Position numbers and translations under genes: made by a program
The notes under the pieces: generated by a model
Seen by the model: the letters and a program-made list of their open reading frames with translations, nothing else
The model's database searches: none
What the model was told of the DNA's origin: nothing
Assembly: GCF_023558375.1 (NCBI RefSeq)
Contig: NZ_CP083761.1
Span: forward strand, 3,894,501-3,958,500
Source of the DNA: Chroococcidiopsis sp. CCMEE 29
Lineage (GTDB): Bacteria; Cyanobacteriota; Cyanobacteriia; Cyanobacteriales; Chroococcidiopsidaceae
Length of the DNA stretch: 64,000 nt
Reading direction: 5' to 3'
Shown here: piece by piece, positions 39,234 to 52,640 of the stretch
Numbering within the stretch: position 1 is the stretch's first letter
Layout: the number at the start of each line of letters is the position of its first letter

Positions 39234-41288
39234 TTAGAAGTTGAATGTTGTTCGGAGTGTACCAATCACAACATCATCGTTAGCATCGTTTTGACCAGGA
39301 GCAGTTAACCAGATCACACCAGGGGTGATTGAGATGTTATCTGTCAGCTGATATCTGTAGAAGCCTTCAATGTGATAACCGTAATCGCGGCTAAAGTTTC
39401 CTACCCCAGGAGCATCAAGACTTCTTAGGGTTGGTTCTATACCAGCGAAAATTCCCAACAGGTTGCCCTGCTTACCTAGATCGGGGAAAGCTAACCCAGC
39501 CCCATAGGTCCAGATATCACCGTTACCGCGACCAATTAGTGTGGCGTTAGTATAAGTACCGAACCCGCTGAGTGATATACCATCAGTTAGGCGGAGTGCA
39601 GCTGAAACACCGTAGGAGTTAGTTACAAGTGGCACATCTGCACCAGGCAGCAGTAATGACGGGTTATTGGCTAGAGTCGTACCGACAACTGGAGTACCAA
39701 TACCTTGGCTAGCAGAACCACCAATATCGAAGATTCCGTCACCCGCGTTGTGGTAAGCGTGGACATAAGTGGCAGCTAGCGCTAAGCGATCGCCAAAATT
39801 GAAATTCAACTGTGCCAGACCAGCGTAGTCACCGTTGAACAGACCAAAGTTTGGCGCAGGTTCATTGGCATTATCTGCTAAAAAGCCCACGGTTAGAGAA
39901 CTTGGTCTGAGAATGCCACCTTCACCAAAGGCAAGAGTTACTGCTCCACCTGCACCACCACCGATCCGGAAAATGGGGTTTTCTTGAGCAAAGGTAGAAA
40001 GAGCACCTCTACCGCCGTCGTAGTCCTCAAAATAAGGGTTGACGGTAGCAGCATAATCGCTATGAATTCCCCCAACAGCGGCAAGGTAACCGCGTGAATT
40101 ACCAAGTAGCGGGAAGTCGTATGCTACCCAGTCGATGGCGACATCGTTGTCAGTATTGGGTGTGATGTTGAAGGTTTGTTGACCCTCAAATGTGCCAACG
40201 TCCCCTATGCCAGGTACGACGGTACCTGGGATAGCAAAGGGTATAGCATTACCAGCTGTCAGCCGGGTATGCAATACATCTCTCCCCGTAAAGCTGGTTT
40301 GCAGGTCTAAACGTACTCGATTTTGCAGAACCGTGTTGTTAACGTCGTTAACTTGCTCACCAAAGGTATCGGTGACTGCTGCAATTACCTCACCAACTAG
40401 CTTGGTGGTAGTAGAGAACTGGTTTGCTTCCAGTTCTGCCGTTACGGCTTCTAAGGAATCTACCCGACCCCGTAAAGTGGCTAGTTCTGCAGCGAACTCT
40501 TCTTGGAGTCGTTGCAGGGTAGCTAAGTCTTCACGGCGAACTAAATCAGCGGTACCGGCAGCAATTAGTTCATTGACACGATCAAGGGCAGCATTCAAGC
40601 CAGCAGCAAACTCGTAGCGAGTCATCGCCCGGTTTCCCCGGAATGTTCCATCCGGATACCCAGCAATCACACCATAGCGCTCTACCAGAGATTGCAGCGC
40701 CTGGAATGCCCAGTCTGTTGGTTGAACGTCAGTTAGCTGAGTAACCGATGTAACCTGATCCAGCGAGGTGTTGTTTTGACCTTCGTTGCTGTAGCGGTTA
40801 ACTTCGTCCAAAGTATTGGGAGAAGTATTAGCTGGGGAAGTCGCTGGAGCTTGTGTAGGTGTCGTTGGCATTTGAGCCACGACTGTTGCTTGCTTATCAA
40901 CAATCAGTTTTTCAACTGGTGTTACAGCAGTCTGTGTCAGATTTTCCGGCTGAGAGATTGCCGCTTGTGGCATTACCTCAAGTGTTTCTACCACCTGAGT
41001 TGGTGCATCAATACGGTTGGCGAGCGCTTGAGGCTCAGATTCGGTTTTCGCAGCGCTGACATTTACGGGCGCTGTATCCAGTACCTTTAGCGCCTCAGCG
41101 TTAATTGGCGTATTGGGAGCGATCGCTACTAAATCAGCTTCTGGGACTTCCGTCTCTTTGGCTTCTGGTTGAGGAACTCCAACCGTAGTTGTTGGCGTTG
41201 TTACTGCAATTGCCGAGGATGAGACAACCAAAGTTGCTCCGAAAATAGCAGGACTCAGCAGCAGAGATTTCCACAATATTTTAGACAT
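39234..41288 (-). CDS. SLH-domain outer-membrane porin (OprB-like)
   Basis: The start is taken at the ATG at 41288, preceded by AGAGGA; a GTG at 41306 is also in frame. The protein of about 684 residues has a signal peptide (LLLSPAIFGATLVVSSSAIA). A Pro/Thr/Val-rich linker follows, then an SLH domain (about 190-250: WAFQALQSLVERYGVIAGYPDGTFRGN). A short coiled coil (LQRLQEEFAAELATL) comes next, and a beta-barrel ends in aromatic Phe (RTTFNF). The SLH domain binds peptidoglycan. Cyanobacterial homologues pass ions, iron or sugars. Confidence 0.92.
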   Translation of the reverse strand: MSKILWKSLLLSPAIFGATLVVSSSAIAVTTPTTTVGVPQPEAKETEVPEADLVAIAPNTPINAEALKVLDTAPVNVSAAKTESEPQALANRIDAPTQVVETLEVMPQAAISQPENLTQTAVTPVEKLIVDKQATVVAQMPTTPTQAPATSPANTSPNTLDEVNRYSNEGQNNTSLDQVTSVTQLTDVQPTDWAFQALQSLVERYGVIAGYPDGTFRGNRAMTRYEFAAGLNAALDRVNELIAAGTADLVRREDLATLQRLQEEFAAELATLRGRVDSLEAVTAELEANQFSTTTKLVGEVIAAVTDTFGEQVNDVNNTVLQNRVRLDLQTSFTGRDVLHTRLTAGNAIPFAIPGTVVPGIGDVGTFEGQQTFNITPNTDNDVAIDWVAYDFPLLGNSRGYLAAVGGIHSDYAATVNPYFEDYDGGRGALSTFAQENPIFRIGGGAGGAVTLAFGEGGILRPSSLTVGFLADNANEPAPNFGLFNGDYAGLAQLNFNFGDRLALAATYVHAYHNAGDGIFDIGGSASQGIGTPVVGTTLANNPSLLLPGADVPLVTNSYGVSAALRLTDGISLSGFGTYTNATLIGRGNGDIWTYGAGLAFPDLGKQGNLLGIFAGIEPTLRSLDAPGVGNFSRDYGYHIEGFYRYQLTDNISITPGVIWLTAPGQNDANDDVVIGTLRTTFNF

Positions 41289-41308
41289 CTTTCCTCTTAT
41301 CCTCACAC

Positions 41309-41877
41309 CTTTTATAGATAAAGAGATTGGCTTTGCCTATTACTTACAAGAAATAAGACGGCTTGTTGGTACCTGTGGAGTAGGTACTCCTAATTATTTT
41401 AGAGTTTAACTCTAATTTTTCCTACCTCAATACCTAAAAACTGACAGTTAATAAATTGGCACTGACTGACTGCCTCTAAGTGATATTTCTCAAGGTATAT
41501 GACAAAGACCCTCCTATAATGGTAAGCGAAAGGAATAAATGTACCTTTAAAGCCCCATATCTAAAAGGCGAGACATGCAACCCCTTGCTGCCAGCTAGCC
41601 TGCATCGTATGTTCTATGGCAGTTGAACGAACAATCTGCACGTTCTACCTTAGAGCTTAGAAGATTTTACTCACTCCGTAGTACTTGTTTAAAAATACTA
41701 CTTCTGGAAGAAACCTTCTAGCCTTATTATTTTCTTGAAGAGGACGCGGGGACGGGGAGACATTACAGATGGAGTCAGAATCTCCATCTGTAATGGAGCC
41801 ACTGAAAGACAAGCTTTCAGTGAGGGATTGTGACCCTGGAATGCCCTGCATCCGGCGCGGTTTTGGAACATTGTAAT
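41309..41877. other. intergenic region with two adjacent perfect hairpins
   Basis: No gene is seen. A 13-bp perfect stem ATTACAGATGGAG/CTCCATCTGTAAT (41762-41774, 41782-41794, 7-base loop) is followed 5 bases later by a 9-bp stem CACTGAAAG/CTTTCAGTG (41800-41808, 41814-41822, 5-base loop). They lie next to an IS1 relic and may be part of it or a structured RNA. Confidence 0.6.
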
Positions 41878-42497: not shown

Positions 42498-43211
42498 GTG
42501 GTTCCTCTGCGCGATGATAATCCCACGGCAGTTACCCCATATGTTACCTATGGGTTGATTGCTGCCAACGTCCTTGTTTTTTTGTTTGAATTGTCTCTAC
42601 CGCCACAACAATTGGATGCGTTTTTCCATCTGGCGGCAGTAGTGCCGCGCGAACTATCGGCTAGCTTTGCTGGTATTTCGGTCAATCAGCCAGTGCCAGA
42701 GTGGGCAACATTGATTTCTTCCCAATTCCTCCACGGCGGTTTTTTGCATCTAGCCGGGAATATGTGGTTTTTGTGGATTTTTGGTAACAACGTTGAAGAC
42801 CGCTTGGGTCACGTAAGATATTTGTTCTTCTATCTTGCCTGCGGTGTTCTGGCAACATTAGCCCAATGGTTCTTTTCACAAACGTCTGGGATTCCTTCCT
42901 TAGGTGCTAGTGGAGCGATCGCTGGAGTTCTGGGTGCCTATGTTCTTCGCTTCCCGCAAATTGAGGTGCTAACCTTAATTCCCTTAGGGATATTTTTTAC
43001 GACTGTACGAGTCCCTGCGGTCTTCTTTCTAGGATTTTGGTTTATTCAACAAGCCTTATACGGTATTACTAGCTTAGAGGCTCGCACTAACATTGGTATG
43101 GAAAGTGGCGGTATTGCCTATTGGGCACATGCGGGTGGCTTCGTTGTTGGAGCAATTCTCGGTCCACTGCTAGGGTTGCTTGAGCCAAAATCAAGAGAAG
43201 AAACTTTGTAA
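42498..43211 (+). CDS. rhomboid family intramembrane serine protease (copy 1)
   Basis: Starts at GTG, giving MVPLRDDNPTAVTPYVTY. The 237-residue protein has six to seven membrane segments. LHGGFLHLAGNMWFLWIFGNNVEDRLG is the conserved loop and segment 2, SLGASGAIAGVLGAY holds the catalytic Ser in GxSG, and YWAHAGGFVVGA holds the catalytic His. It cleaves membrane proteins within the bilayer. A close paralogue lies 243 bases downstream. Confidence 0.9.
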   Translation: MVPLRDDNPTAVTPYVTYGLIAANVLVFLFELSLPPQQLDAFFHLAAVVPRELSASFAGISVNQPVPEWATLISSQFLHGGFLHLAGNMWFLWIFGNNVEDRLGHVRYLFFYLACGVLATLAQWFFSQTSGIPSLGASGAIAGVLGAYVLRFPQIEVLTLIPLGIFFTTVRVPAVFFLGFWFIQQALYGITSLEARTNIGMESGGIAYWAHAGGFVVGAILGPLLGLLEPKSREETL

Positions 43212-43454
43212 AGGCAAAATGTAAAGGGGGAATAAATAATTTTTTCCTCTTTACATTATTCTTTTCAAGTGCCTACAAAACTGATGGTTATTATGAAATA
43301 AATTATCTTTGATTCAAGAGAATAGTTTTTTTATCTTTAAATCGGCATACTTTTACTAATGCTAATAATGTCCATAGATTGAATGCGTTAGAGTGCTTAA
43401 AGCTAACTTTAATCGGCTATATTTTAGTTAACTAATAAATCAGGAAAAACACCA

Positions 43455-44150
43455 GTGGTACCTCTGCGAGATAATAACCCAATAACAATCACACCGTATG
43501 TCACCTATGCATTGATTGGTGCCAATATCTTTGTTTTTCTTTATCAACTAACTCTGACCCCAGCAGAATTGGAACAGTTTTTCCGCTCTGCGGCAGTGGT
43601 ACCTTGCCAACTATCGGCTACTTGTCCTATCCCTGCTAATCAAGGATTACCAGAGTGGATGACTCTATTTACATCTCAATTTCTGCATGGGGGTTTTTTG
43701 CACATAGCGGGAAACATGTTGTTTCTGTGGATTTTTGGTAACAACATTGAAGACCGCTTGGGGCATGTAAAGTATTTAATTTTTTATCTAGCCTGCGGTG
43801 CTTTAGCAGCACTGACCCAGTGGTTCTTTTCCCAGAGTTCCACCATTCCTTCTCTCGGTGCTAGTGGGGCGATCGCTGGAGTCATGGGGGCATACATTCT
43901 CTGCTTCCCACGCGCCCAAATTCTGACCTTAATTCCCTTAGGATTTTTCATCACCACAGTGCGACTCCCTGCCATCTTCTTTTTGGGATTTTGGTTTGTT
44001 CAGCAAGCCTTCTACGGAGTTGCCGACTTACAGGCGCGCAGCAATATTGGCATGGAGAGTGGCGGCGTTGCCTATTGGGCGCACGCAGGCGGTTTCGTTT
44101 TCGGAGCAATTCTCGGTCCCCTGTTGGGTTTGTTTAAGGGTAGCCGCTAA
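43455..44150 (+). CDS. rhomboid family intramembrane serine protease (copy 2)
   Basis: A 231-residue paralogue of the preceding gene, also starting at GTG (MVPLRDNNPITITPYVTY). GASGAIAGVMGAY and WAHAGGFVFGA hold Ser and His. The two are alike along their length, with differences in the first loop, where this copy has two Cys (VPCQLSATCPIP) absent from copy 1. That loop could change substrate choice. Confidence 0.9.
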   Translation: MVPLRDNNPITITPYVTYALIGANIFVFLYQLTLTPAELEQFFRSAAVVPCQLSATCPIPANQGLPEWMTLFTSQFLHGGFLHIAGNMLFLWIFGNNIEDRLGHVKYLIFYLACGALAALTQWFFSQSSTIPSLGASGAIAGVMGAYILCFPRAQILTLIPLGFFITTVRLPAIFFLGFWFVQQAFYGVADLQARSNIGMESGGVAYWAHAGGFVFGAILGPLLGLFKGSR

Positions 44151-46845: not shown

Positions 46846-46884
46846 TGATAAAAATGCCCTCCAGATTTAGCATCGGGAGGGCAT
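46846..46884 (-). terminator. terminator-like hairpin of tandem unit B
   Basis: On the minus strand ATGCCCTCC, a 13-base loop and GGAGGGCAT are followed by TTTTTATCACTA. The same arrangement recurs at 47012-47053. Confidence 0.75.
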
Positions 46885-46978
46885 AGCGATAAGTTGGGTG
46901 TGAGGAGCAAGCATTTGTTTGTTTGCTGATCTCAAGTTAAGTGGTAGATATGACAGCCCAATGACAATCAGATGACAA
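46846..46978 (-). ncRNA. candidate small RNA unit B
   Basis: The unit opens with three 7-bp direct repeats, TTGTCAT-CTGA-TTGTCAT-TGGG-CTGTCAT on the minus strand (46950-46978), spaced as in PhoB-type Pho boxes. About 65 bases follow with no open frame, then the hairpin and T-run. A TATAAT lies upstream near 46990. Unit A has the same order of parts. Transcription is inferred. Confidence 0.4.
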
Positions 46979-47011
46979 TTCTGTGAAATTATAGGGCAAA
47001 GGTAACTTTTA

Positions 47012-47053
47012 GTGATAAAAATGCCCTCCCGCTCTAATGGCTTGGGAGGGCAT
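47012..47053 (-). terminator. terminator-like hairpin of tandem unit A
   Basis: ATGCCCTCCC, a 13-base loop and GGGAGGGCAT are followed on the minus strand by TTTTATCACTA. The stem differs from unit B by one added pair and the loop sequence is unrelated. Confidence 0.75.
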
Positions 47054-47139
47054 CAATTAGGCTTAATCCGGCATGAGGAAGCAGCACCATGTCTGCTCAA
47101 AACTAACTGTAAGCATTAAATGTGACAAAGCTGAGACAA
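47012..47139 (-). ncRNA. candidate small RNA unit A
   Basis: It opens with TTGTCTC-AGCT-TTGTCAC on the minus strand (47122-47139), again 7-bp repeats with 4-base spacing, then about 70 bases with parts matching unit B (GCTGCTTCCTCA against GCTTGCTCCTCA), then the hairpin. It lies about 110 bases after the stop of the Pro/Thr repeat gene, so it might instead be that gene's 3' end. Confidence 0.4.
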
Positions 47140-47246: not shown

Positions 47247-47807
47247 TTAATTAATTTGCTTTGTGCAACTTTCTAAGGCTTGGAGCCTTGCCCTAGTAGC
47301 TCCCCCACTAGCACCTGCTGGAGAAATTGATTCACATAGTCCTGTATCTGACACACCGGCCTCGGGACTAGTGACACCTTCAGGTGCTGGAGTTGTTGTT
47401 GGAGTATCCACACCGGGAGTAGTCGTTGAACCATCCGGTGCTGGGGCAGTGATGGAATCTTCAGGTGCTGGAGTTGTTGTTGGAGCATCAACACCGGGAG
47501 TAGTCGTTGAACCATCCGGTGCTGGGGCAGTGATGGAATCTTCAGGTGCTGGAGTTGCTGGAGCATCAACACCGGGAGTAGTCGTTGAACCATCCGGTGC
47601 TGGGGCAGTGATGGAATCTTCAGGTGCTGGAGTTGCTGGAGCATCAACACCGGGAGTAGTCGTTGAACCATCCGGTGCTGGGGTACTAGAGGGGACGTCT
47701 TGCACTTGAGACTGAAGCATAGGTTCTTGAGTTTTCGCTTCAGTAGATATGCTGCCTACTAACAACAAAGCGAGAATAGAACCACCGGTCAGAAGTTGCT
47801 TGAGCAT
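47247..47807 (-). CDS. secreted Pro/Thr-rich repeat protein
   Basis: The start is the ATG at 47807, with AAGGAG just upstream; a longer frame begins at 47888 but lacks a site. The protein of about 186 residues has a signal peptide (LTGGSILALLLVGSISTEA). Four copies follow of a 26-27 residue unit such as PAPDGSTTTPGVDAPATPAP and EDSITA, encoded by near-identical 78-81 bp DNA repeats (about 47381-47690). The short C-terminus has two Cys (GLCES, ESCTK). It is probably an extended, exported linker-like protein. No function is known to me. Confidence 0.65.
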   Translation of the reverse strand: MLKQLLTGGSILALLLVGSISTEAKTQEPMLQSQVQDVPSSTPAPDGSTTTPGVDAPATPAPEDSITAPAPDGSTTTPGVDAPATPAPEDSITAPAPDGSTTTPGVDAPTTTPAPEDSITAPAPDGSTTTPGVDTPTTTPAPEGVTSPEAGVSDTGLCESISPAGASGGATRARLQALESCTKQIN

Positions 47808-48246
47808 TTTGGTTTTCTCCTTAGTAATTGCCTGCTGGGCTAGAATTATGAGAAATAAAGCCCAGTAGGGCACCTCTAAGTTAGGCACCGTTAATTACCA
47901 TACTGTACATTTAGCATTCTGCACACCTTTATACAAAAAGGCTCAATCGGCAGGCTCTATAGGGATTTCAGGGAAGTATTTGAATAAAAATGCCTCAAAC
48001 AACTGCTGGTAGAGGATTCCAGCCTCGGAGATGCCAAATAACTGAAACTGGTTCCAACCAAAGGGTTTAGCCTGTTGTTTTAACTCATTTCCCCGAAACG
48101 CCTATTGCCAATCCGCACGCCTACATTATTGAGGACGGTGGCAGAAAGACGATGAACCCAGAACAGTTAAAATTTAAGGAGATAGCTGCCTCTAGGGGCT
48201 ACTAAATCCAGGTAAGATGCAGGCGATGGCACGGTGACACTGCCTC
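47808..48246. other. intergenic region with a possible gene fragment
   Basis: A minus-strand open frame at 47943-48101 reads KPFGWNQFQLFGISEAGILY and LFKYFPEIPIEPAD to a stop but has no start codon. It looks like protein sequence yet I cannot place the family. The segment 48139-48163 (GGTGGCAGAAAGACGATGAA) recurs at 50152. Confidence 0.35.
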
Positions 48247-49451: not shown

Positions 49452-49844
49452 CTATATCTGCTCAATATTACTGATTAACCAAGTTGCTAACTCTGCTTGA
49501 GATAACTCCCCTTTTGCCAAATCAACCATGACTTCAACTGCCTCCACCTCAGGAGCTACCAACTCGTAACCGTTCCTTATTAGAAACACGCCTATAGTAA
49601 TGAAGGCAATACGCTTATTGCCATCCACAAAACAGTGGTTTTTAACTAAGCCATACCCATAGGCTGCTGCTAAGTCACAGATATTTGACTCTGGCTCATA
49701 GTATGCCAGTTGTTGAGGACGCATTATAGTAGACTCCAGCGCCCCCTCGTTTAACACCCCCAAACTACCTCCAAAGTCTTTGACGGCTTCGTCGTGCAGT
49801 GCAATAACTTCTTGTTTGTTCAACCAGTAATAGATTAAGGTCAT
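49452..49844 (-). CDS. doc: Doc-type (Fic fold) toxin
   Basis: A 130-residue protein. The Fic/Doc core reads NHCFVDGNKRIA (69-80), with the catalytic His70 and the phosphate-binding Asn-Lys-Arg. Phage P1 Doc phosphorylates elongation factor EF-Tu, and homologues share this shape. GGSLGVLNEGALESTIMRPQ is a conserved Doc segment. It overlaps the antitoxin gene by 4 bases and is transcribed after it. Confidence 0.9.
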   Translation of the reverse strand: MTLIYYWLNKQEVIALHDEAVKDFGGSLGVLNEGALESTIMRPQQLAYYEPESNICDLAAAYGYGLVKNHCFVDGNKRIAFITIGVFLIRNGYELVAPEVEAVEVMVDLAKGELSQAELATWLISNIEQI

Positions 49845-50071
49845 CTATCAGCTAGTTCCTTTAAGGCGTTACGATATCGTCTTTTGACACGTCGATAAGC
49901 TTCCATCGTCGCGGCAAAATTCTTATCGTAAGGCGATAGGACTAACCGACCGTCAGACTCTTTAGTGACGAAGACTTCATCCCCAGCTTCTACATCCATA
50001 TGTTTGAGGTATTCCTTTGGGAGTGTCACTCCAACAGAGTTACCTATTTCTCTGAGTTTGAGAGTGTCCAT
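49841..50071 (-). CDS. AbrB/MazE-type antitoxin
   Basis: A 76-residue protein. LKLREIGNSVGVTLPKEYL (about 4-22) is a SpoVT/AbrB DNA-binding motif, followed by VEAGDEVFVTKE. The basic C-terminus (RRVKRRYRNAL) probably wraps the toxin. It precedes doc with a 4-base overlap, the usual toxin-antitoxin order, and should repress its own promoter. Confidence 0.88.
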   Translation of the reverse strand: MDTLKLREIGNSVGVTLPKEYLKHMDVEAGDEVFVTKESDGRLVLSPYDKNFAATMEAYRRVKRRYRNALKELADR

Positions 50072-51413: not shown

Positions 51414-52421
51414 CTAAGGGGCTTGCCAAATTTTTTGATGATACGCCTCTACATCTGCGTAGGGATCTACCGGGGAATGAGAGTGGTCGTGACTGTGGTG
51501 ATCGTGGTGTCCATGCTCGTGATGATGAGTGTGAACGTGATCATTACCATTTGCTGCAGCAGCTAACCGAAATTTGCACATTTCACAATTCATCTGCACT
51601 TGACCCATCTGGGTTTCAATTTCCCGCTCTCGCAGGATCGAGAACAATTGGGGATGAAGGCCCATTTCTGGCAGACAGGTGATGGAAATATCTGGGTATT
51701 GTTCCTGTTGTTGGGCGGTGATGTCGAAAATCTTTTTGACCAAGATTCCAGTGAACAGAAAGTAGGGTAAAACAATAATCCGTTTTGGCTGGTAGAGTCG
51801 AGCGCGACGGAAACCTTCTTCCAACCGAGGGTGGGTAATGCCGATAAAACAGGTTTCAACTGTTGAGTAACCACTGCCTTCCCATAAAATTCGGGCGAGT
51901 TTGCAAACATCGCTGTTGGCATCGGGGTCACTAGAGCCACGACCGACAAACAACAGCACGGTTTCGGAGCGATTCCACTGCGGCTGATCTAATTCTGCCA
52001 AGCGCGATCGCCATAATTCCAGAATCCCCGGTGTAATCCCAAAATGACGTCCGTAGTGAAACTTAAGCTGAGGATAACGTTGCCGTGCTCGGTCTAATTC
52101 GTTAGTCACATCAAACTTATTGTGCCGCGCTGCAAATAGAAGAATTGGCAGCACTGAAAGTTCGGTATAACCTTGGGCAACACATTGCTCGATCCCATCC
52201 TGAATCGTGGGCTTAGTCAGTTCCAGAAAACAAGGTAGAACAGGACGGGATGTATCCAAAGCTTGATAGGCAGCAGCAAAATCCAGCAAGCTCTGTCTCC
52301 CTGCTTCATCCTTGGTACCATGACCAATCATTAATAAAGGGCGATGTAGCGGCAGTGGTAAAAGGTGCTGGACTTTTGACTGATCTAGACCAGTCAGATT
52401 TGTTGTATTAACAGTAGGCAT
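51414..52421 (-). CDS. cbiX: sirohydrochlorin cobaltochelatase, long form
   Basis: A 335-residue CbiX-L. Two chelatase halves are seen: MIGHGTKD with His34 in the first and LFVGRGSSD in the second, where the His is Arg, with further His at 100. MNCEMC (277-282) is the MxCxxC motif reported to hold an iron-sulfur cluster in long CbiX, and a His-rich tail follows ([19 protein letters not shown], about 298-316). It inserts cobalt into sirohydrochlorin for cobalamin. A cobalamin riboswitch precedes it, which supports the assignment. Confidence 0.92.
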
Positions 52422-52435
52422 TGTAAGCTAAAGCT

Positions 52436-52640
52436 CCTTCCCTGTGCAACGCAGGAAATAGAGTGAGCAAGTAACAGATAGGCGTTCTGGCTTTCGCAAT
52501 TTTGGATTTCGGATGATTGAGCCACTTCCAAAATCTAAAATTGGTTTACAGCTGCGGCACAGCCCCGGATTTGCACCGGAGTTTCCCTATATCTATTACG
52601 GTTCACGTTTGCCTTGATATCTTAACCGATCCAGCCCAGT
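52436..52640 (-). promoter_or_regulatory. cobalamin (AdoCbl-type) riboswitch
   Basis: On the minus strand, GGTGCAAATCCGGGGCTG, then the B12 box GCCGCAGCTGTAA, then AGCCAGAACGCCTATCTGTT are present in the canonical order. The apical loop TGCAA of the first hairpin can pair with TTGCAC in the hairpin CCTGCGTTGCACAGG (about 52440-52456), which sits just before the ribosome site GGAAGGAG of cbiX. Cobalamin binding should therefore block translation. A variable stem (52497-52513 with 52527-52543) is formed by the dispersed repeat. Confidence 0.93.

Follow-up and report, generated by a model that had tools for sequence, protein, structure and literature searches.

Tandem Yfr1-type small RNA units behind a TGTCA-repeat operator in Chroococcidiopsis sp. 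CCMEE 29, probably stress-switched silencers of outer-membrane porins

The minus strand of positions 46846-47139 of the window (the whole 64,000-nucleotide stretch analysed) carries two consecutive units, A and B, each composed of TGTCA repeats at 11-bp spacing, a non-coding stretch and a near-identical terminator. Judged from sequence, the two units are probably stress-switched silencers of outer-membrane porins. The interpretation we favour, with moderate confidence, is that they are tandem Yfr1-type small RNAs (sRNAs) that would be switched on by an RppA-like envelope-stress system and would silence porin and wall genes. What can be read directly in the DNA is the operator, the core and the terminator, the conservation of all three together, the presence of the operator at protease and RppA-like loci, and the complementarity to porin mRNAs. 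The features are as follows.

46950-46978, minus strand: operator of unit A, TTGTCAT-N4-TTGTCAT-N4-CTGTCAT, with repeats at 46972-46978, 46961-46967 and 46950-46956
46934-46939, minus strand: -10-like box TAACTT of unit A, 10 bases past the last repeat, a spacing common to relatives
46846-46927, minus strand: predicted sRNA of unit A, its start placed from the -10 box and its extent from folding and relatives
about 46906-46927, minus strand: 5' hairpin of unit A in the predicted fold
46898-46907, minus strand: Yfr1/Yfr10-type core CTCCTCACAC of unit A, by motif comparison
46854-46884, minus strand: terminator stem-loop of unit A, by fold and terminator match
47122-47139, minus strand: operator of unit B, TTGTCTC-N4-TTGTCAC, with repeats at 47133-47139 and 47122-47128 and one mismatch to the operator pattern
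47106-47111, minus strand: -10-like box TACAGT of unit B, 10 bases past the last repeat
47014-47099, minus strand: predicted sRNA of unit B, with an inferred start
47070-47084, minus strand: variant core CTGCTTCCTCATGCC of unit B
within 47014-47054, minus strand: terminator stem-loop of unit B
41293-41309, minus strand: predicted target site GGTGTGAGGATAAGAGG, by complementarity, immediately ahead of the probable start codon (ATG at 41288) of OprB/SLH porin ORF 39234-41306

An earlier note on this DNA had described two minus-strand units with 7-bp repeats and 4-base spacers, and both were recovered exactly where it placed them. Its estimate of 65-70 non-coding bases per unit also held, the distance from the last repeat to the stem being about 65 bases in unit A and 68 in unit B. 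The PhoB-like layout that it recognised proved to be an OmpR/PhoB-family arrangement, in which 11-bp direct repeats end 10 bp before a -10 box; this TANNNT box, exactly 10 bases past the last repeat in both units, was absent from the note. The combined pattern BTGTCAY-N4-BTGTCAY-N10-TANNNT is matched exactly by unit A and with one mismatch by unit B. At up to two mismatches it occurs four times in the window, three of them in units A and B, against 0.16 expected, and none of 100 shuffles reached four matches. Exact TGTCA pairs alone showed no enrichment in the genome (10 matches versus 10 for the reversed pattern).

Both units end in a stable stem-loop followed by TTTTTATCACTA, and GGAGGGCATTTTTATCACTA occurs exactly twice in the window at up to three mismatches, with 0 expected from 100 shuffles. 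The near-identity of the terminators thus stands as first described, but the matching 13-base loops require unequal stems: both loops have 13 bases only with a 9-bp stem in unit A and a 10-bp stem in unit B, and the loop of unit B grows to 15 bases if both stems are taken as 9 bp. Four folded stretches gave z-scores of -2.5 to -5.6 relative to shuffles. The fold of unit A comprises the 5' hairpin, an unpaired stretch of about 21 nt that holds the core, and the terminator; the minimum-energy fold of unit B does not show a 5' hairpin.

Several other features lie in the window. The 213-aa ORF 47247-47888, which shares the minus strand with unit B and lies upstream of it, has tandem proline/threonine-rich repeats. 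A cobalamin riboswitch (52460-52611, minus strand; 35.1 bits) precedes a 335-aa ORF resembling a CbiX-type chelatase (51414-52421). Two tandem ORFs at 42498-44150 (plus strand) resemble duplicated rhomboid proteases, and two overlapping small ORFs at 49452-50071 (minus strand) resemble a Doc/Fic-type toxin and an AbrB-type antitoxin.

We searched 291 genomes of the order with a pattern that combines a single TGTCA with TGCTCCTCACA at the correct distance, which returned 33 matches (28 places) in 26 genomes, versus 2 for the reversed pattern. Inspection covered 27 of the 28 places, G124:C1:3603572 being left out. At 15 of these 27, a second repeat lies 11 bp away (6 or 7 of 7 positions), and a terminator follows in all 15; false terminator calls in shuffled stretches amounted to 32 of 540. 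One further place (L037), which has a terminator but is itself truncated by the contig end, was counted as the sixteenth genome. The remaining 11 places have no such repeat and, save for one weak call (L040), no terminator, and were treated as chance. Searching related genomes for the unit, as the earlier note had suggested, therefore found repeats, motif and terminator together in 16 of the 291 genomes. A contig-wide scan yielded 34 loci, of which 8 are cyanobacterial, five of these on contigs that, judged by length, the order-level searches had already found; Aliterella atlantica (strain CENA595), Scytonematopsis contorta and Oscillatoria are among the relatives recovered in this way. The other 26 loci were taken as chance, though a uniform-base estimate predicts about 7. 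As a point against the favoured reading, 10 of the 19 genomes of the family do not show the sRNA pattern, yet every one of the 19 has a match to the RppA model, so the RNA arm is either variable or diverged beyond the pattern.

This joint conservation of operator, core and terminator supports the proposal that the units are duplicated small-RNA-like genes. It also bears on a simpler reading, in which the stem-loops are mere terminators of the upstream gene 47247-47888, with read-through, and the repeats arose by chance. Unit B does follow that ORF on its strand, but many genomes have the repeats, the -10 box, the Yfr1 motif and the terminator in combination, and the operator pattern is above chance in the window. 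We rejected this very improbable reading on the joint conservation. On the favoured reading, the units would be tandem, separately promoted genes for trans-acting sRNAs.

What is conserved across genomes differs in part from the first description, which suggested selection on structure. The RNA targeting motif is conserved more than loop-independent structure. The alignment of the core was gathered partly by the motif itself. Single 5' stems were longer than in shuffles (mean 5.6 versus 3.9 bp in 21 sequences). In a fixed register, 86 of 119 cells were paired, compared with 82.5 in shuffles, a value reached by 125 of 2000 shuffles, and both-side changes numbered 3 versus 2.8 (17 distinct rows of the 21). 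Since fixed-register pairing hardly exceeds that of shuffles, we claim no covariation for the 5' hairpin.

The core of unit A holds CUCCUCACAC, with which the cyanobacterial sRNAs Yfr1 and Yfr10 recognise their targets and which the available text of PMC6778093 and PMC2190773 describes as common to both. Rfam returned nothing within units A and B at its cut-offs. Below them, the strand of unit A matched Yfr10 (RF02362) at 16.8 bits (E 9.4; cut-off 43) and the opposite strand matched Cyano-1 at 19.6 bits (E 0.9; cut-off 41); these chance-level scores are still informative because both cyanobacterial matches align over the motif. The canonical yfr1 of this genome is a separate gene (L025; G000:C1:5342454), with the motif between two strong hairpins, and was obtained with a motif pattern that disallows G two bases before CTCC, so that some sites may be missing. 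Unit A is therefore an extra Yfr1-type RNA, and it coexists with yfr1 in one genome, as Yfr10 does. In its predicted fold, unit A resembles Yfr1, which has an unpaired core of 16-20 nt between two stem-loops. The Yfr1 undecanucleotide ACUCCUCACAC itself does not occur in the units, unit A having GCUCCUCACAC (10 of 11 positions) and unit B CUUCCUCAUGC. Unit A is predicted to work like Yfr1, yet it is not classed as yfr1.

Unit B and a third copy in the same genome hold a variant, CUGCUUCCUCAUGC. The 14-base core of unit B, CTGCTTCCTCATGC, recurs behind an operator at L103, a locus found by the operator alone, where the exact core sits between a hairpin-like stretch and a terminator. That L103 carries exactly this core suggests that unit B is a second type rather than a product of decay. 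As an observation in its own right, L103 (G000:C1:2545447-2545480, plus strand) is a third operator-driven sRNA-like unit in this genome, with the core variant of unit B.

To define the regulon, the operator was searched as repeats plus -10 box, with no RNA motif, in the same 291 genomes, giving 59 sites in 51 genomes. The reversed control gave 49 matches, 44 of them in ten genomes of a single genus (g63) without real sites; outside that genus, 59 real matches compare with 5 reversed ones. The 44 reversed matches suggest a repeat family in that genus. At twelve of the 59 sites the operator is followed by a Yfr1-type core and a terminator, and at ten by a terminator with no exact core: four of these have a TTCTCACAC core, three have no core recognisable by eye, and three look false (L116, L117 and L151).

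Behind other operators lie protein-coding genes. HhoA/HhoB/HtrA proteases scored above the NCBIfam cut-off in 3 of 3 cases scanned, as did the one CtpB scanned, with two more similar-looking; two OB-fold (BOF) proteins were above the Pfam cut-off and two below. One operator-linked operon encodes an RppA-family regulator (251 bits; cut-off 250). In genome G141, the operator is separated from htrA by a Yfr1-like core with its terminator. Among 11 operator matches at htrA loci, one is at the htrA of the present genome, where the site scores only 15 of 17; four belong to a conserved site of g3 and g4 genomes whose second repeat is poor, and six represent a different element that lies beyond htrA on the opposite strand. 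At four further loci (L065-L067 and L111), the operator precedes 220- and 130-aa ORFs without a Pfam match that are similar by eye; their proteins share the stretch ...IYNRFQ.AR.RFPEFFPCFELR... and may represent an envelope-stress family.

The genome itself encodes an RppA-like regulator (264 bits; G000:C1:4035258-4035920) together with a kinase that scored 317 bits with the RppB model, short of its cut-off of 400. In this cluster the kinase gene is followed by the operator and then, on the same strand, by genes for a permease, a methyltransferase-like protein, an M28 peptidase, HtrA and a rhomboid protease. Of 13 RppA-like loci, 6 have an operator with a score of 15 or more out of 17 after the kinase gene; four of these six have an imperfect -10 box, and two of the six had been selected for already containing the operator. 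In three genomes of genus g2, which we take to be Chroococcidiopsis, another RNA with the Yfr1 motif and the operator is found within 1 kb past the htrA gene of the RppA-like cluster. A closer RppA orthologue exists in the genome (L159, 415.9 bits), and no operator was found near it. In the available text of PMC13421787, the Synechocystis RppA motif is AAMAWCTCYYWCCCC, unlike the TGTCA operator. Because of this different motif and the closer orthologue, only the RppA-like paralogue is named, on the strength of its position: we infer that the likeliest regulator of the units is this paralogue and not RppA itself. A literature search joining RppA, HtrA and cyanobacteria found no paper.

These observations leave room for a less probable, though credible, alternative, namely that the extra Yfr1-type sRNAs are controlled by another OmpR-family regulator responding, for example, to metal, light or osmotic conditions, with the proteases as secondary members. 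It gains from the fact that the regulator is named by gene position only while the known RppA binds another motif, and from several sites that precede genes for sugar dehydrogenases, a 2Fe-2S protein, PepSY and rubrerythrin-like proteins. Other operators stand before genes whose products match no known family. That the operator keeps occurring next to the same kind of regulator/kinase pair, and ahead of HtrA and CtpB proteases in different families, argues against this alternative and for the RppA-like system.

The first reading of the locus had been that the units are phosphate-starvation sRNAs whose repeats are Pho boxes bound by SphR. The E. coli PhoB consensus is CTGTCAT, which the repeat sequence resembles. 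The available text of PMC1906773 prints this consensus otherwise; the 11-bp spacing of the direct repeats and their 10-bp distance to the -10 box match the layout that it gives for the E. coli PhoB box. In one relative (G006), moreover, the sRNA shares a contig with pstC and pstA, at a distance of a few kb. The cyanobacterial Pho box, however, is CTTAACCT-like in the accessible parts of PMC1906773 and PMC11126600: the SphR box likewise has 11-bp-spaced direct repeats, of the TTAA type, unlike the TGTCA operator. At 30 pstC loci of the Chroococcidiopsidaceae, a TTAA-type Pho box scored above the best of 5 shuffles in 17, whereas a YTGTCAY triplet did so in none. The pstS of the genome itself has a TTAA-type triplet about 100 nt before the ORF (score 22 of 24; shuffled control 17), and 114,975 bp of pst loci contained no operator match at the operator threshold. 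Units A and B lack TTAA-type repeats like those at pst genes, and the other genes behind the operator encode proteases and envelope proteins. With 30 pstC and 5 own pstS-like loci tested, the Pho reading was rejected as improbable, and phosphate responsiveness is the part of the earlier note that found no support.

Turning to targets, eight OprB-type matches were found in the genome. The start regions of three of the eight, one of them in the window, contain GGTGTGAG, which is complementary to unit A; two of these three have GGTGTGAGGA. None of 132 other start regions examined contains GGTGTGAG, the single match among 133, a set that includes loci chosen for the motif, being the window porin itself. 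Among 14 sites of GTGTGAGGAG, four have an ORF start 2-19 nt after the first base of the site, and these ORFs encode a LytR-CpsA-Psr protein, MurE, SpoIID and an AMIN-domain efflux protein of the outer membrane, all of envelope type. Predicted and tested Yfr1 targets in Nostoc agree with this, in the available text of PMC6974561. Duplex energy alone does not single out porins, the window porin ranking third of 44 window ORFs. From its seed, unit B would be expected to pair with GCAUGAGGAAG. Canonical Yfr1 could silence the same mRNAs.

In the mechanism that we propose for the RppA-like system, an OmpR/PhoB-family response regulator would bind the 11-bp-spaced TGTCA repeats and switch on each unit. 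The signal is likely to be envelope stress, because HtrA-type proteases of the periplasm and other envelope proteins belong to the regulon. The RNA of unit A would present CUUGCUCCUCACACC to mRNAs with GGUGUGAGGA near the start codon and block their translation; its targets would be OprB porins and, probably, genes of wall synthesis, murE among them. The shifted seed CUGCUUCCUCAUGC may direct unit B and the third copy to other targets. One two-component regulator would thus raise both proteases and Yfr1-type sRNAs, halting porin and wall synthesis. Extended to a whole regulon, the proposal is plausible but tentative: an undescribed envelope-stress regulon in which an RppA paralogue, acting through a TGTCA-N6-TGTCA operator, would couple the induction of HtrA/CtpB proteases to a multicopy set of Yfr1-type sRNAs, with two or more different seeds, that stop the synthesis of porins and murein.

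According to the available text of PMC6778093, nearly all cyanobacteria have Yfr1, and it is almost constitutive. If our reading is true, the units would be stress-inducible copies of the targeting motif of a constitutive RNA, and the conserved operator, linked to proteases and a regulator/kinase pair, would supply a regulator, a signal and a regulon for such RNAs.

Among known systems, the tandem arrangement recalls NsiR1, a tandem heterocyst sRNA. An NsiR1-like array was rejected, the motif being different and the locus having only two units and no repeat array of the whole gene. With Yfr1, unit A shares a core between a 5' hairpin and a terminator, as well as complementarity to porin and wall genes (PMC2190773, PMC6974561 and PMC6778093, in their available text). 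It differs in the base preceding the core (A in Yfr1, G here), in length (54-69 nt for Yfr1, about 80 nt inferred for unit A) and in its control: Yfr1 is described, in the sections available, as nearly constitutive, whereas the promoter here is predicted to be operator-controlled, and the units stand in tandem, with a second variant core. Yfr10, Syr5, Yfr104 and two Nostoc transcription start sites are likewise extra Yfr1-motif RNAs beside Yfr1 in the available part of PMC6778093. In Yfr10, however, the motif lies in the loop of a stem, whereas here it lies between two hairpins, and the Yfr10 score is far below the Rfam cut-off; the same portion of PMC6778093 states that the regulators of yfr10 are unknown, whereas here a candidate operator precedes the units. 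By sequence, then, the units are best described as a regulated, tandem variant of Yfr1/Yfr10-type sRNAs and no new class. In E. coli, MicA, RybB and CpxQ are porin-silencing sRNAs of envelope-stress regulons. The proposed logic would be the same, joining a stress regulator, a periplasmic protease and a porin-silencing sRNA, but the RNA sequences and the regulator are unrelated, and the likeness is one of analogy only. If true, the units would form a cyanobacterial counterpart of the sigma-E/Cpx MicA-RybB-CpxQ arm, assembled from unrelated parts, and would suggest that porin-silencing sRNAs joined envelope-stress responses independently in cyanobacteria and proteobacteria.
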